Positions 28,867 through 40,544 of a stretch of 64,000 nucleotides of DNA are shown here, in pieces. Where the stretch lies: NCBI RefSeq assembly GCF_018687785.1, contig NZ_LTBL01000001.1:1231780-1295779 (forward strand), written 5' to 3'. Positions within the stretch are counted from its first letter, which is position 1; each line of letters opens with the position of its first letter. The notes below the pieces were generated by a model. The model did not search any database and had not been told where the DNA came from. It was given only the letters and a program-made list of their open reading frames with translations. The translations under genes were made by a program, and so were the position numbers. The DNA comes from Methanovulcanius yangii. GTDB lineage: Archaea > Halobacteriota > Methanomicrobia > Methanomicrobiales > Methanomicrobiaceae.

Positions 28867-31026
28867 ATGAGAATACTTGCAATTGGACTGGGCGGCGCCG
28901 GAACACGGATTGTCGATCAGCTCTATGATCACGACACCAGGAGCCGTGTTGGGTGTGTCAATGCGCTCGCCGTCGATATGGATGGCAATAGTCTGCGCCA
29001 GCTCGAGTTTATCCCCCAGCCCCAGCGGATGAATTTTCCTCCCCTCGATCCTGATATCCATTTTGATGTTCCTTCAACGGTCAATGTTGAAGAGATCATG
29101 ACCATGATCCAGCGGATGGATACGGTCGAAATCGATGCCATCATGATCTTCGCGGGCCTGGGAGGAAGCGTCATCGACGCCGTCCCCGAGCTCGTCGAAG
29201 AACTGAGAATTGCCTATATTGAACCAGTATTCGGGGTCTGTACCCTCCCCATGCGCCATGAGGGAAAGAAACAATCCTCAAAGGCATCGGAAGACATCAT
29301 AATGCTTCGTGATGTGCTTGATGCGGTCATTCTCTTCGACAATGAGACCTGGTACGGGAAATTGCAGGCGGAATTTCATGAGCACAGCGTGGCCATGGAG
29401 GAGAAGCGCCTCCCGTATCCGGCGAAAAAGTTTCCGGAAAACCCCCGCGATCTGTACCGGATGCTCAATGATCGTATTGCCCGTCAGATAGGACTCCTGC
29501 TCAGGGCGGGCGAATTCAATGAAGAGGGCCTGGAAGCAGCGGAGGTCGTTCTGGACGCAGGGGAGGTACTCAACACCCTGCGTGACAACGGACTGGTCGC
29601 AATCGGATATGCGGTCGAACCGCTCACGGTATCCCTGAAGGAACGCTTTTTAAACTGGCGTTCAGAGACCTATTTCTCGGAATATTCCCATAAACGGGCC
29701 ACCCGCATTGTATCCCTTGCAAAAAAGGCGGTCTACGAAGATATCTCAGTCCCATGCGACATCACCAGCGCAGACAAGGCACTGGTACTCATTGCAGGCC
29801 CTTCACAGGAACTGTCCATGAAGGGATTCCAGACGGTACGTAAATGGATTGACCGGAGCATTTCGGGGCTCGAGATGCGTTCCGGGGACTACCCTGTCCG
29901 CAATACGAAATACGTGGGGATTATCATCGTTCTCTCGGGGATCGAAAACATCCCGCGGGTGACCGAACTCGCCGACATTAAGAAAGAATATGAGGCTGAA
30001 CGTCTCGAAGAAGAAGAGGAAATAAAAAGGAGAGAAGAGATGCAGGCCTGGGAGGCCGAAGAGGAATCATGGGTCACCGCCCGGAATCCCGATACGGGGG
30101 ATTATCGTAATTCCGGGGAGACTACGGGAGGAATTTCCTTTATCGACCTCCTCGAAGATGACGATGAATGCATGCCGCCCGAAATTTCCGGGGAAGGAGA
30201 GGAAGAGGCGGTTTTGAATGATGAGGATGGCCGCCCGGTCACATCCCGGGAATATGTGGAGTATTCACAGGATTATGATACGGATTATGGGTCCAAAGGA
30301 GATGACGGCGACGTGAAGGATGAGATGGTACGCCTTGAGGGAATTGCTGCTACGAAAGATTCGACAGATGATTCCCTCACAGCGAAGGATGGACAGATTA
30401 CTATTGCAGGTGCAGGCAGGCAGGAAAGCAGTGACGATAAGCTGGTCCTTCCCGGAAGACAGGCCCGAACAGTCGCCGATATGACCCGTATGACGAGCGG
30501 CGGTTCGAACAATGCGCCGAACGATGCAATCTTCGGACTGAAAGAGATCCCGAAGAGGGGGCAGAAGGGTCCAAGAGATACCTCGCTTGTCGGCAGTTCC
30601 ATCGCCATCGATACCCCCGGCTTCCGGGCGAAGGACAGCACCTTCGAGGGAGGGAAGGTATCCGTTGCTTCGGCAGCCGGGCCAAACGACAGTTCCATCA
30701 ACGGGTCGTCGGTGAAGGTGCGGCCGGTCAATACCAGACTCAACGACAGCGTCGTCTCCGGCAATTCAGTGCAGCTTTCGGGGTCGAAGATACAGACGAA
30801 GGAACTTCTCGACGGAGAAGTCCGGATGAAGGAGAAAATCCCTGCCCCCAAGGACGAACTTATGGCACGGGTCGAAACCCGGATGAAGAAGACAAAGGAA
30901 CAGACAGCACAGCCGCAGAAAGAACCCTCCTATAAGGCAGGGACCATCAGCAGCACTTACACAAAAAAGAATTCGCAAGAGGAAGAAGAAGAGGAGAAAG
31001 CAGACGACCTCTTCTGGATCACATAG
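28867..31026 (+). CDS. Tubulin/FtsZ-superfamily protein with a long repeat-bearing C-terminal tail
   Basis: A 719-residue protein whose first ~350 residues resemble archaeal tubulin/FtsZ-like GTPases (CetZ/FtsZ3-type): MRILAIGLGGAGTRIVDQL is the first nucleotide-binding loop, and IMIFAGLGGSVIDAVPELVE stands where tubulins have GGGTGSG, here degenerate. It is not a canonical FtsZ. A charged helix rich in E, R and K (residues ~375-400) leads into a long acidic, low-complexity tail. Within the tail, from about residue 570, four units start 18-19 residues apart with the pattern DSxxxGxSVxV (RDTSLVGSSIAI, KDSTFEGGKVSV, NDSSINGSSVKV, NDSVVSGNSVQL). The start is MRILAIG; upstream codons are not protein-like. 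Function unknown; a cytoskeletal or cell-shape role is an inference. Confidence 0.7.
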   Translation: MRILAIGLGGAGTRIVDQLYDHDTRSRVGCVNALAVDMDGNSLRQLEFIPQPQRMNFPPLDPDIHFDVPSTVNVEEIMTMIQRMDTVEIDAIMIFAGLGGSVIDAVPELVEELRIAYIEPVFGVCTLPMRHEGKKQSSKASEDIIMLRDVLDAVILFDNETWYGKLQAEFHEHSVAMEEKRLPYPAKKFPENPRDLYRMLNDRIARQIGLLLRAGEFNEEGLEAAEVVLDAGEVLNTLRDNGLVAIGYAVEPLTVSLKERFLNWRSETYFSEYSHKRATRIVSLAKKAVYEDISVPCDITSADKALVLIAGPSQELSMKGFQTVRKWIDRSISGLEMRSGDYPVRNTKYVGIIIVLSGIENIPRVTELADIKKEYEAERLEEEEEIKRREEMQAWEAEEESWVTARNPDTGDYRNSGETTGGISFIDLLEDDDECMPPEISGEGEEEAVLNDEDGRPVTSREYVEYSQDYDTDYGSKGDDGDVKDEMVRLEGIAATKDSTDDSLTAKDGQITIAGAGRQESSDDKLVLPGRQARTVADMTRMTSGGSNNAPNDAIFGLKEIPKRGQKGPRDTSLVGSSIAIDTPGFRAKDSTFEGGKVSVASAAGPNDSSINGSSVKVRPVNTRLNDSVVSGNSVQLSGSKIQTKELLDGEVRMKEKIPAPKDELMARVETRMKKTKEQTAQPQKEPSYKAGTISSTYTKKNSQEEEEEEKADDLFWIT

Positions 31027-31456: not shown

Positions 31457-31588
31457 TGCTTATGAGTTCTTTCCGGAAATCTCATAAATTCGCTGATGAA
31501 TGGACTGAAAGAAAACGGCGGAAGAACCTGCCGGTGCAGAACTGCAGAAGCAGAATGGTTAATTATCCGGCAAACCCAATCAATGAGT

Positions 31589-31660
31589 GGATCCATAGGG
31601 TAGAGGATATCCTCTTGGGCTTCGAACCCAAGGACGCGGGTTCGATTCCCGCTGGATCCG
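31589..31660 (+). tRNA. tRNA-Arg (TCG anticodon)
   Basis: GGATCCA pairs perfectly with TGGATCC to form the acceptor stem. The anticodon arm TTGGG-CTTCGAA-CCCAA gives anticodon TCG. The T arm GCGGG-TTCGATT-CCCGC is intact. The CCA end is not encoded and G is the discriminator base. No intron. Confidence 0.93.
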
Positions 31661-31794
31661 TCCGTTTTTATCACAGCTACGCAATCCTCTCAGGAGGCAG
31701 GCCTTCGGGGCACCTTCCCGATATTGAAAACAAACCGGCCGATATTCCGATAATAAAGTCACCTTCGTCCATCCTTCATCATCAGTTGGGGACT

Positions 31795-38081: not shown

Positions 38082-40544
38082 TTAGTCCTTCCGGAGGACC
38101 AGTGCTGCAACAGCACCGAGGCCGATCAGTGCAAAGACTGCACCAAAGCCCGGAGTTGCGGTCGGCTCAGGAGTGGGCTCCTCAGTCGGCTCAGCGGTGG
38201 GCTGTGCGGTGGGCTGTGCGGTCGGCTGTGCAGTCGGCTCTGCGGTCGGGACGGCCTTCAGAACGTTGAAGGTCTGGGTTGCAGTGTTGTCAGCTTCAAC
38301 AGCTTCGACCTTGACGATGTACTCGTCGGGCTTGAAGTTGGATGCGTCAACTGCAAACTCCCATGCATTGCCGTCGTCACCCTCGGTGACGAGGACAGTG
38401 CCGGATGCGCCGCTGAATGCGCCGGACTGGGTCTTCTCGGTCGGCTGGAATGAGGAAGAAACAACTTCAACAATCAGGGAGTCGCCAACAGCGAGGTTGG
38501 TGGTTCCGGTGATGGTGAAGGTCTCGCCAACATAGCGGTCGCCGATTGCGTCGATGATGATCCACGGCTCTTCGACCATGAAGGTGAGCTTGTAGTAGGT
38601 ATCATCAACGTTCGGAGAGTTGATTGCCTGAACGAGTGCCTCTGCAGCGTCGGAGCCCTGGAGACTGCCCTGGCCCTCGAGCTTGAAGAGCAGAAGGTCG
38701 TCGCTGATCTTGTTGTAGACGTTGCCGTTCAGTTCGTAAATGTCCTGCTGTCCGTTGTACATCGGGTGCTGAACGACCACGAAGTACTGTCCGGCTGCAA
38801 GGGAGCTGTCAGTTGCAAACTTGTATTCGAAGGTGCCGTCATCCTCAACGGTCTCGGAGGTTGCAATGGCTTTGTTCTTGCCAAGGATCCAGACGTAGAC
38901 GTTGGAGGGGTCACCCTCTGCAGTACCGGTGATGTACAGGTCGTCGCCCTTTGCGACGGTTGCTGCACTGGTGGTTGCAGTCACGAACGGCTTCTTGATG
39001 ACGATCGAAACGGTTGCATAGGTTGCACTCAGGGTTCCGAGGTCGCCCTTGTCGATGTCGTCGGTGACAGCGTAGATGGTGTAGGTGCCTGCATCAAGGT
39101 CAACTGAAGAGGTGTCCCACTTGTATTCCCACGTGTCATCGGTCTCAACAGCTTCTTCGATGAAGGTGGTGTCGACACCAGTGGTGGTCTTGCTGTCAGT
39201 GTTCTTCGGGTCTACGAGCTTTGCACCGTTGGCCCACAGGTTGGGACCAGTGATGAACAGGTAGACGTAGTCACTGTCAGTGTTGGTTCCGGAGAGAATG
39301 ATCTCCTCGCCGAGGAAGTAGGATGCGTCGCCGGATGCGGTGACGGTAACATCGCCCTTCTCAACCTTCACTTTGACCTTGTCGTACTTTGCAGTTGCAT
39401 AGTCGGTCATCTGCTGAACGCGGATGGTGTAGCTCTGGTCGGTGGTCGTCTGGTTGGTTGCAAAACCAATCGTGCGGGTGCCGGACCCAGAGGTGGTGAT
39501 CTTTGCAAATCCATTTGCATTTGCGGTGTCTGCCCGGACAGTCTTGCCGGAGGAGAACTCATAGTCACCTGCATCGGTGTCATTGACAGTAACGGAGTCC
39601 TGGTTCAACTTGATCTCGGGGGGCTGCTCAACACTGCTGGAACCCTCAAGCCAGAGGGCGTAGTTCGTGTTGGGCCTACCGGTCACGGTCACGGAGAAGT
39701 CGTTGTTGCGGACGACGGTGTCCTTGTTTGCCTCAATGGTCACGGTGTCCTTTGCAATGGTGACGGTGTATACCTTGGAGACGGTTGAGCCGGTGACGGC
39801 ATAGTTGTCATCCATGCTGTTGACATCACAGGATGCGTAGAACGTGTAGACACCGGATGCGTAGTTAGCGCTGGAGGTGTACCAGATAGGGTCATACTGA
39901 CCAAGAACATAGTCAAGCTGGCTGTCAACTGCGAAGTCCTTAATGGATGTGGTTGTACCAGCCGCATTGATAAGGCCCGTATATTTGGTACCCTGTTCGT
40001 CCTTCACGGTGATGGTAATAGCATCATCGCCAGCTTCGTAACCAGTACGGTCAAAGATCTTCCACAGGTTGGTGTCAATTCTGAACGTCAAGTTAGAGTT
40101 CGTAATGACATTGCCATCTGTGCGGTCTTTGGAAGTACTTGCACCAGTAATCTCGTATGCCTTCACATCAATGGTCGGAACTGCCGCATAGAATGCAACG
40201 GTCCAGTTACCATTGAGCTGGGGATCCGTCAGGCTGTCCTGATCAACATACCATGCTCCTGTCTTCGTACCAAACTTCGAGGGATCGATATAGTTGGTGA
40301 AACCAGGGGTAATTGAATAGGTATCTGCCCAAGATGCTGAGCTTGTGTCAGCTCCATCGGGGAACCATACGGCAACCCAAGTGTCTACTCCACCGGTGAC
40401 GGCATCCCAGTTAAGGTCCTCTTCACCAGCGAATGCGGTAAGCCCGGTCGAATTCATGTATCTGGTGTCTGCTGCTGCAGGTGCTGCTGCAACAAATGCC
40501 AGTGCAATCATGGCTACCAGGGCAATTCCTAGTTTTGTTTTCAT
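38082..40544 (-). CDS. slp: S-layer glycoprotein (DUF3821/MEMAR-type) with PGF-CTERM anchor
   Basis: Main candidate for the cell-envelope S-layer subunit, 820 residues. The parts in order are a signal peptide (MKTKLGIALVAMIALAFVAA), beta-rich domains with many Asn-x-Ser/Thr sites for N-glycosylation, a Pro/Thr/Glu repeat stalk (PTAEPTAQPTAQPTAQPTAE), and the C-terminal tripartite PGF-CTERM signal (TPGFGAVFALIGLGAVAALV then RKD), which archaeosortase cuts while attaching lipid. GGAGGT lies seven bases before the ATG. Acidic composition, biased codons, a strong TATA box, a 5' hairpin and a strong terminator all point to very high expression. The family is typical of Methanoculleus and relatives. 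Confidence 0.9.
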   Translation of the reverse strand: MKTKLGIALVAMIALAFVAAAPAAADTRYMNSTGLTAFAGEEDLNWDAVTGGVDTWVAVWFPDGADTSSASWADTYSITPGFTNYIDPSKFGTKTGAWYVDQDSLTDPQLNGNWTVAFYAAVPTIDVKAYEITGASTSKDRTDGNVITNSNLTFRIDTNLWKIFDRTGYEAGDDAITITVKDEQGTKYTGLINAAGTTTSIKDFAVDSQLDYVLGQYDPIWYTSSANYASGVYTFYASCDVNSMDDNYAVTGSTVSKVYTVTIAKDTVTIEANKDTVVRNNDFSVTVTGRPNTNYALWLEGSSSVEQPPEIKLNQDSVTVNDTDAGDYEFSSGKTVRADTANANGFAKITTSGSGTRTIGFATNQTTTDQSYTIRVQQMTDYATAKYDKVKVKVEKGDVTVTASGDASYFLGEEIILSGTNTDSDYVYLFITGPNLWANGAKLVDPKNTDSKTTTGVDTTFIEEAVETDDTWEYKWDTSSVDLDAGTYTIYAVTDDIDKGDLGTLSATYATVSIVIKKPFVTATTSAATVAKGDDLYITGTAEGDPSNVYVWILGKNKAIATSETVEDDGTFEYKFATDSSLAAGQYFVVVQHPMYNGQQDIYELNGNVYNKISDDLLLFKLEGQGSLQGSDAAEALVQAINSPNVDDTYYKLTFMVEEPWIIIDAIGDRYVGETFTITGTTNLAVGDSLIVEVVSSSFQPTEKTQSGAFSGASGTVLVTEGDDGNAWEFAVDASNFKPDEYIVKVEAVEADNTATQTFNVLKAVPTAEPTAQPTAQPTAQPTAEPTEEPTPEPTATPGFGAVFALIGLGAVAALVLRKD

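Follow-up and report, generated by a model that had tools for sequence, protein, structure and literature searches.

The window, a stretch of 64,000 nucleotides from Methanovulcanius yangii, contains on its forward strand an open reading frame for a protein of 719 amino acids that we call CetZ-L. The span given to this gene in a first-pass annotation was exact: the frame is genuine, it opens with an ATG at position 28867 that its orthologues also use, and its stop codon lies at 31024-31026. It is one of four tubulin-superfamily genes in the genome, together with two FtsZ genes and a canonical CetZ of 392 amino acids (C1:189183-190313).

28867..31026, + strand: coding sequence of the long-tailed CetZ paralogue, CetZ-L (open reading frame and translation; 719 amino acids)
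28867..29985, + strand: tubulin/CetZ core, residues 1-373 (Pfam, AF2, Foldseek)
29953..30081, + strand: long C-terminal helix of the core, residues 363-405 (AF2 secondary structure)

A CetZ core in a conserved setting

The N-terminal half had been annotated as a divergent tubulin/FtsZ fold, and profile and structure comparisons bear this out and refine it. Pfam places a Tubulin domain at residues 2-164 (1.2e-12) and CetZ_C (PF21011) at residues 196-373 (7.1e-46; 156.4 bits, with the cut-off at 21.6), finds CetZ_C in 50 of 50 orthologues, and returns no domain match in the tail of CetZ-L. Against solved structures, phmmer ranks Haloferax CetZ1 (4b46) best at 7e-47, with CetZ2 (4b45) also near and the best FtsZ at 6e-5. 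The AF2 model of the core has pLDDT values of mostly 80-96; with this model, Foldseek likewise returns 4b46 first (E 6.6e-30, TM(target) 0.86) and puts 4b46, 4b45 and Methanosaeta CetZ (3zid) ahead of any FtsZ, the top four chains all being CetZs. The FtsZ family model TIGR00065 gives CetZ-L 36 bits, below its cut-off of 295.2, and the tubulin/FtsZ GTPase profile scores it lower than the canonical CetZ. Because Pfam, phmmer and Foldseek all favour CetZ, the tubulin-like fold was correctly recognized and is that of a CetZ; membership in this family of the tubulin superfamily is virtually certain.

Every one of 185 genomes of the Methanomicrobiales contains a match, although a few of these are a paralogue or fragments only (G002, G010, G050, G094 and G165 match at the paralogue level). 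Nearly all of the best matches listed start at residue 1 and cover most of the core. Most orthologues are open frames of 550-1155 amino acids, and family f6 has members of about 390-440 amino acids that lack the long tail; one orthologue is in two pieces (G009:C13:69814-70997; query residues 1-253 and 271-382), reflecting a frameshift or an assembly error. Among 296 genomes of the phylum, there is no full-length match above 36% identity outside the order. In a tree of 42 rows the CetZ-L clade is monophyletic (99/99), and the taxonomic spread proposed as a check on the annotation is thus that of a single clade confined to the Methanomicrobiales. Its sister group (93/99, on long branches) consists of short, tail-less proteins of 313-340 amino acids in families f9 and f29, and these presumably correspond to the second CetZ in Archaeoglobales.

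In most of the order the gene keeps the same company, arranged as mtd, a galT-like gene, mer, CetZ-L, nrpR, the dcd region and surface-protein genes, and ribosomal proteins and a thymidine-phosphorylase-like gene are further members of this neighbourhood. This recurrence speaks for vertical descent. No division or cytoskeleton gene was found in the neighbourhood; we read it as vertical synteny and rejected the adjacent genes as operon partners. Within the window, a tRNA-Arg (TCG) lies downstream of dcd at 31588-31663 (+), and a spurious conserved open reading frame of the neighbourhood probably arises from its antisense frames; an S-layer-like protein with DUF3821, PT repeats and PGF-CTERM, at 38082-40544 (-), shares the conserved neighbourhood in part of the order.

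Loss of the phosphate loops with retention of T7

In tubulin and FtsZ, the T3 and T4 loops hold the phosphates of the nucleotide, and the T7 loop completes the active site of the neighbouring subunit. The corresponding positions in CetZ-L are as follows.

28885..28902, + strand: T1 loop GLGGAG, residues 7-12, kept (G7, G9, G10 and G12 invariant in 50 orthologues)
29047..29070, + strand: T3 loop site, residues 61-68, DPDIHFDV, canonical GHGVGxDN gone (alignment)
29155..29169, + strand: T4 loop cut down to GLGGS, residues 97-101 (GLGGGTGSGG in canonical CetZs)
29548..29583, + strand: T7 loop VLDAGEVLNTLR, residues 228-239, kept (conservation in 50 orthologues)

The degenerate T4 loop (AGLGGS, residues 96-101) had been noticed in the first-pass annotation and is confirmed, but the claim was understated: T3 is lost too, and throughout the order. 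That second loss had been missed, and in our reading the loss of the two loops matters more than the repeats of the tail. In 50 of 50 aligned orthologues the GLGG of T4 is invariant and TGSGG is missing, with unrelated residues in its place. In an alignment with canonical CetZs, in which the core may be misplaced by a few positions around T3, both loops are missing from all 20 orthologues and from all three sister-group proteins, and both are present in all 13 canonical CetZs, the 392-residue paralogue of the same genome included. The sister-group members examined here (L123, an antisense frame 990 of 340 amino acids, L114 and L130) are tail-less as well as without T3 and T4.

Other parts of the nucleotide site are retained. 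The T6 motif FDN is kept alongside T1 (GxGGAG) and T7; the Asn of T2 (AVNTA) is replaced by an Asp, D37, that is invariant in the 50 orthologues. T7 (VLDAGEVLNTL) preserves the canonical sequence almost letter for letter, with its DxxE...NT, and V228, L229, D230, E233, L235, N236 and T237 are invariant in 50 of 50 orthologues. Loss of the phosphate loops with retention of T7 leads us to predict weak or no GTP binding together with a conserved contact to a neighbouring subunit; from these sequence features, GTP binding by CetZ-L is likely to be impaired, although some nucleotide may still bind since T1 and T6 are kept. Based on the absence of T3 and T4, we treat CetZ-L as a homologue of CetZ and class it among the divergent paralogues of that family.

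The C-terminal tail and its terminal peptide

The tail carries the following features.

30082..30486, + strand: acidic linker, predicted disordered, residues 406-540 (composition, pLDDT mostly 38-50, tail alignment)
30523..30555, + strand: weak repeat unit DAIFGLKEIPK, residues 553-563 (unit profile)
30577..30609, + strand: repeat unit 1, DTSLVGSSIAI, residues 571-581 (self-comparison, unit profile)
30634..30666, + strand: repeat unit 2, DSTFEGGKVSV, residues 590-600 (self-comparison, unit profile)
30688..30720, + strand: repeat unit 3, DSSINGSSVKV, residues 608-618 (self-comparison, unit profile)
30745..30777, + strand: repeat unit 4, DSVVSGNSVQL, residues 627-637 (self-comparison, unit profile)
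31003..31023, + strand: C-terminal peptide DDLFWIT, residues 713-719 (conservation in most orthologues; FtsZ-derived profile)

The description of the tail as some 350 residues, acidic and then basic, holds: 344 amino acids lie past residue ~375, with 27% D+E and 10% K+R in residues 406-540 and 14% K+R and 10% D+E in residues 541-660. The tail alignment shows short motifs within the acidic linker, among them ISFIDLLED, KDEMVRL and DDKLVLPGR. Four regular units are present as had been proposed, but each begins one residue later (571, 590, 608 and 627 rather than 570, 589, 607 and 626), and of the weaker copies said to precede them there is one clear example, at 553 (profile score 16.9 at residue 550 against a shuffled maximum of 13.0), and no further clear copy. 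Taken alone, the periodicity of CetZ-L is modest: when residues 541-680 are shuffled 5000 times, 92 of the shuffled sequences equal it at lags 12-29. None of 2000 shuffles matches the self-similarity of the whole tail at lag 37, a distance of about two units. What settles the repeat question is the presence in orthologues of arrays of units at 18-19-residue spacing.

Counted with a scored unit profile, whose seeds overlap some of the proteins scanned, orthologues in the protein's own family have 0-8 units at this spacing, and in distant families the units become faint. In family f1, most members have 4-8 units, spaced mostly at 18-19 residues, with 0-3 in its genera g2-g3; other families have 0-5, and several members of f2, f3 and f6 have none. 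Among eight relatives, the D and G of the unit are 97% and 100% identical, and positions other than these and two hydrophobic sites are 65% identical. Estimates of dN/dS are about 0.09-0.15 for the repeats (three pairs), 0.03-0.08 for the core and 0.15-0.24 for the acidic stretch, and the tail evolves fast apart from its short motifs. The unit identities and dN/dS values argue that the constraint on the repeats is real but of the short-motif type. In one relative (L006:3229-3750), near-identical 18-residue units stand in tandem at a contig end, a recent expansion or a spot where the assembly may have failed; such copies suggest that the arrays expand by duplication. Two other relatives (L048, L034) have an extra Q/N/P-rich, prion-like tail stretch of ~150 residues. 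A profile search of the protein's own genome with the tail alignment matched the CetZ-L gene alone, and we rejected the idea that the repeats are a docking code common to other proteins of the genome.

The full-chain structure prediction that had been suggested as a check yields a core folded as CetZ and no beta units in the tail. With a 50-sequence alignment, AF2 gives pLDDT values of 34-50 and no secondary structure from residue ~430 to the C-terminus, and 34-44 without strands in the repeat region. On this model the tail appears rather likely to be mainly disordered, and its sequence is mostly low-complexity, bearing DxxxxG units every 18-19 residues. Absence of the repeats from orthologues and a disordered tail had together been named as speaking against the original reading; repeats are present in many orthologues, and disorder is what AF2 predicts.

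The first-pass annotation overlooked a conserved C-terminal peptide, which, like the loss of the loops, we rank above the repeats in importance. Most orthologues end in D(D/G)xxWI(K/R/T), and some ends are of the GID type (GIDWIK in L069, GIDWIT in L051, GIDWIM in L068). In the same genomes FtsZ1 ends in EIDFLK or DIDFLR, and FtsZ2 in LIDFIR, LIDFL, FDWIM, LVDWVM or LLEWVG. Because few orthologues fit a strict GID, we dropped it as the definition of the peptide and used a profile of FtsZ1 and FtsZ2 ends, omitting two poorly fitting FtsZ2 ends (GGLIDQM and GGGIDVIL). Most CetZ-L ends outscore all 448 unrelated open-reading-frame C-termini taken from the neighbourhoods as background, although the ends scored come from related orthologues and are not 40 independent observations. 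The ends of canonical CetZs (DLEPLF) mostly score lower. Five canonical CetZs (L111, L112, L108, L110 and L134) have a conserved C-terminal motif of their own, (D)(L/I)(E/D)PLF, whose sequence suggests a distinct docking partner.

Archaeal FtsZs have C-termini built around GID that fit into a groove on SepF; in Methanobrevibacter smithii the end is LDDFI and FtsZ binds with a Kd of 84 uM (PMC8178401). Haloferax SepF pulls down FtsZ2 (PMC8187382). All 18 genomes tested have exactly one SepF, and all 18 have an FtsZ above the family cut-off; the SepF of G000 is encoded at C1:1618878-1619102. Docking of the CetZ-L peptide in the manner of SepF ligands may thus be contemplated from sequence, and we consider it possible, a little short of evenly balanced. 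Against it, the likeness extends over 5-7 residues, and convergence or the binding of another partner could account for it; moreover, the peptide is lost in L059-L063, L065 and L066, and SepF is still there in those checked.

Possible role and relation to known systems

From the CetZ fold, the loss of T3 and T4 with T1, T6 and T7 kept, the long repeat tail and the FtsZ-like peptide, we infer a pseudo-GTPase state, a partner and SepF docking. Lacking the usual GTP binding, CetZ-L would not be a free-standing former of dynamic polymers. Its core would instead join the filaments of a nucleotide-binding partner through the conserved T7 face, perhaps capping or interrupting them, and the likeliest partner would be the 392-residue canonical CetZ of the same cell. 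The disordered, repeat-bearing tail would give it a tether that is long, flexible and perhaps multivalent, and the terminal peptide may dock, as in archaeal FtsZ, on a membrane protein, either SepF or one resembling it; CetZ-L would in this way connect the CetZ cytoskeleton with the membrane or division site. Our tentative reading is thus of a CetZ subunit with impaired GTPase function that is held by a linker and peptide of the FtsZ type, perhaps to SepF. The lack of division or cytoskeleton genes in the conserved neighbourhood speaks against this reading. Co-assembly with the canonical CetZ is a shade more doubtful. The main text of Brown and Duggin (PMC9856176) raises the possibility that such genomes use their two CetZs as functional pairs, and in genome G350 the loop-less sister gene adjoins a canonical CetZ gene, the two being likely a pair. 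The fullest form of the proposal, an order-wide pseudo-GTPase that bridges a CetZ filament, through its core, and an FtsZ/SepF membrane anchor, through an FtsZ-mimicking peptide on a repeat tether, is in its entirety unlikely.

CetZ-L could instead be an ordinary self-polymerizing CetZ with a changed nucleotide mode, its tail an entropic spacer or crowding brush with no specific docking. The retained T1, T6 FDN and T7, the invariant D37, which could accompany a nucleotide change, and the fast evolution of the tail outside short motifs are consistent with this. However, a member of the tubulin superfamily that has lost both phosphate loops would not be expected to bind GTP tightly any more, and a pure spacer would not need a terminal peptide that is conserved in most families despite a fast-evolving linker; we regard this explanation as rather unlikely. 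A role within the FtsZ system, as a regulator of division and a competitor of FtsZ2 for SepF, would explain the FtsZ-like peptide and would suit the single SepF per genome and the binding of FtsZ2 by Haloferax SepF (PMC8187382), but the core is that of a CetZ, with a tubulin/FtsZ GTPase score below the canonical CetZ's, and Haloferax CetZs affect cell shape, not division (PMC8187382), which makes it distinctly unlikely. A tail folded as a beta-solenoid and serving to polymerize or bundle filaments, close to the small solenoid or polymerizing module first suggested, is not established and improbable: the regular 18-19-residue units, purifying selection and beta-prone SVxV stretches would fit it, and AF2 folds the near-perfect L006 array alone, with no alignment, into a beta-solenoid of two strands per unit (pLDDT ~88), but AF2 is known to predict confident, unrealistic solenoids from near-perfect repeats (PMC11795689), and a PDB search with the L006 model gave no good match (best E 0.88), so that we do not accept this model as evidence; the strand-free, low-pLDDT repeat region of CetZ-L itself and a copy number of 0-8, with units fading in distant orthologues, also stand against it. 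Our preferred reading remains the tethered, GTPase-impaired subunit.

The tubulin superfamily is defined by GTP-driven polymerization. A protein found throughout an order that has lost its phosphate loops, but in which the loop facing the neighbour is invariant, offers a natural way to ask if members of the superfamily can serve as non-hydrolysing partners. CetZ-L resembles Haloferax volcanii CetZ1 (4b46) and CetZ2 (4b45) in its two-domain core, CetZ_C and the DxxE...NTL of T7; it differs from them in lacking the T3 and T4 phosphate loops and in its tail of ~340 residues, where theirs is a short acidic end, and its FtsZ-like peptide differs from the DLEPLF end of canonical CetZs. ARC3 of chloroplast division combines an FtsZ-like domain with MORN repeats and is thought to regulate FtsZ rather than polymerize. 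It shares with CetZ-L a degenerate tubulin-superfamily domain and C-terminal short repeats, but the repeats and lineages are unrelated and the likeness may be taken as an analogy only.

The first-pass annotation knew of no described cytoskeletal protein that combines these parts. This stands for the combination, but the main text of Brown and Duggin 2023 (PMC9856176) already reports two CetZs per Methanomicrobiales genome, and its non-Halobacteria-like CetZ group (Archaeoglobales, Methanomicrobiales and Methanosarcinales) very probably includes CetZ-L. Membership in CetZ and the two-paralogue situation are therefore known; that main text does not mention the tail, repeats, terminal peptide or T3/T4 loss of CetZ-L. 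The presumed Methanosarcinales members of the group keep SGGTGSS and HGVGAN, unlike CetZ-L.

Archaeal FtsZ1 and FtsZ2 have the same layout as CetZ-L, a core followed by a flexible linker and a conserved terminal peptide, and their ends (EIDFLK, LIDFIR, FDWIM) can be set beside LFWIK and GIDWIT of the CetZ-L clade. In contrast to these FtsZs, the clade has a CetZ core, a repeat-bearing linker of ~100-700 residues and a SepF docking that is predicted. As the FtsZ-like peptide predicts SepF binding, it bears on what CetZs attach to, a question for the whole family.
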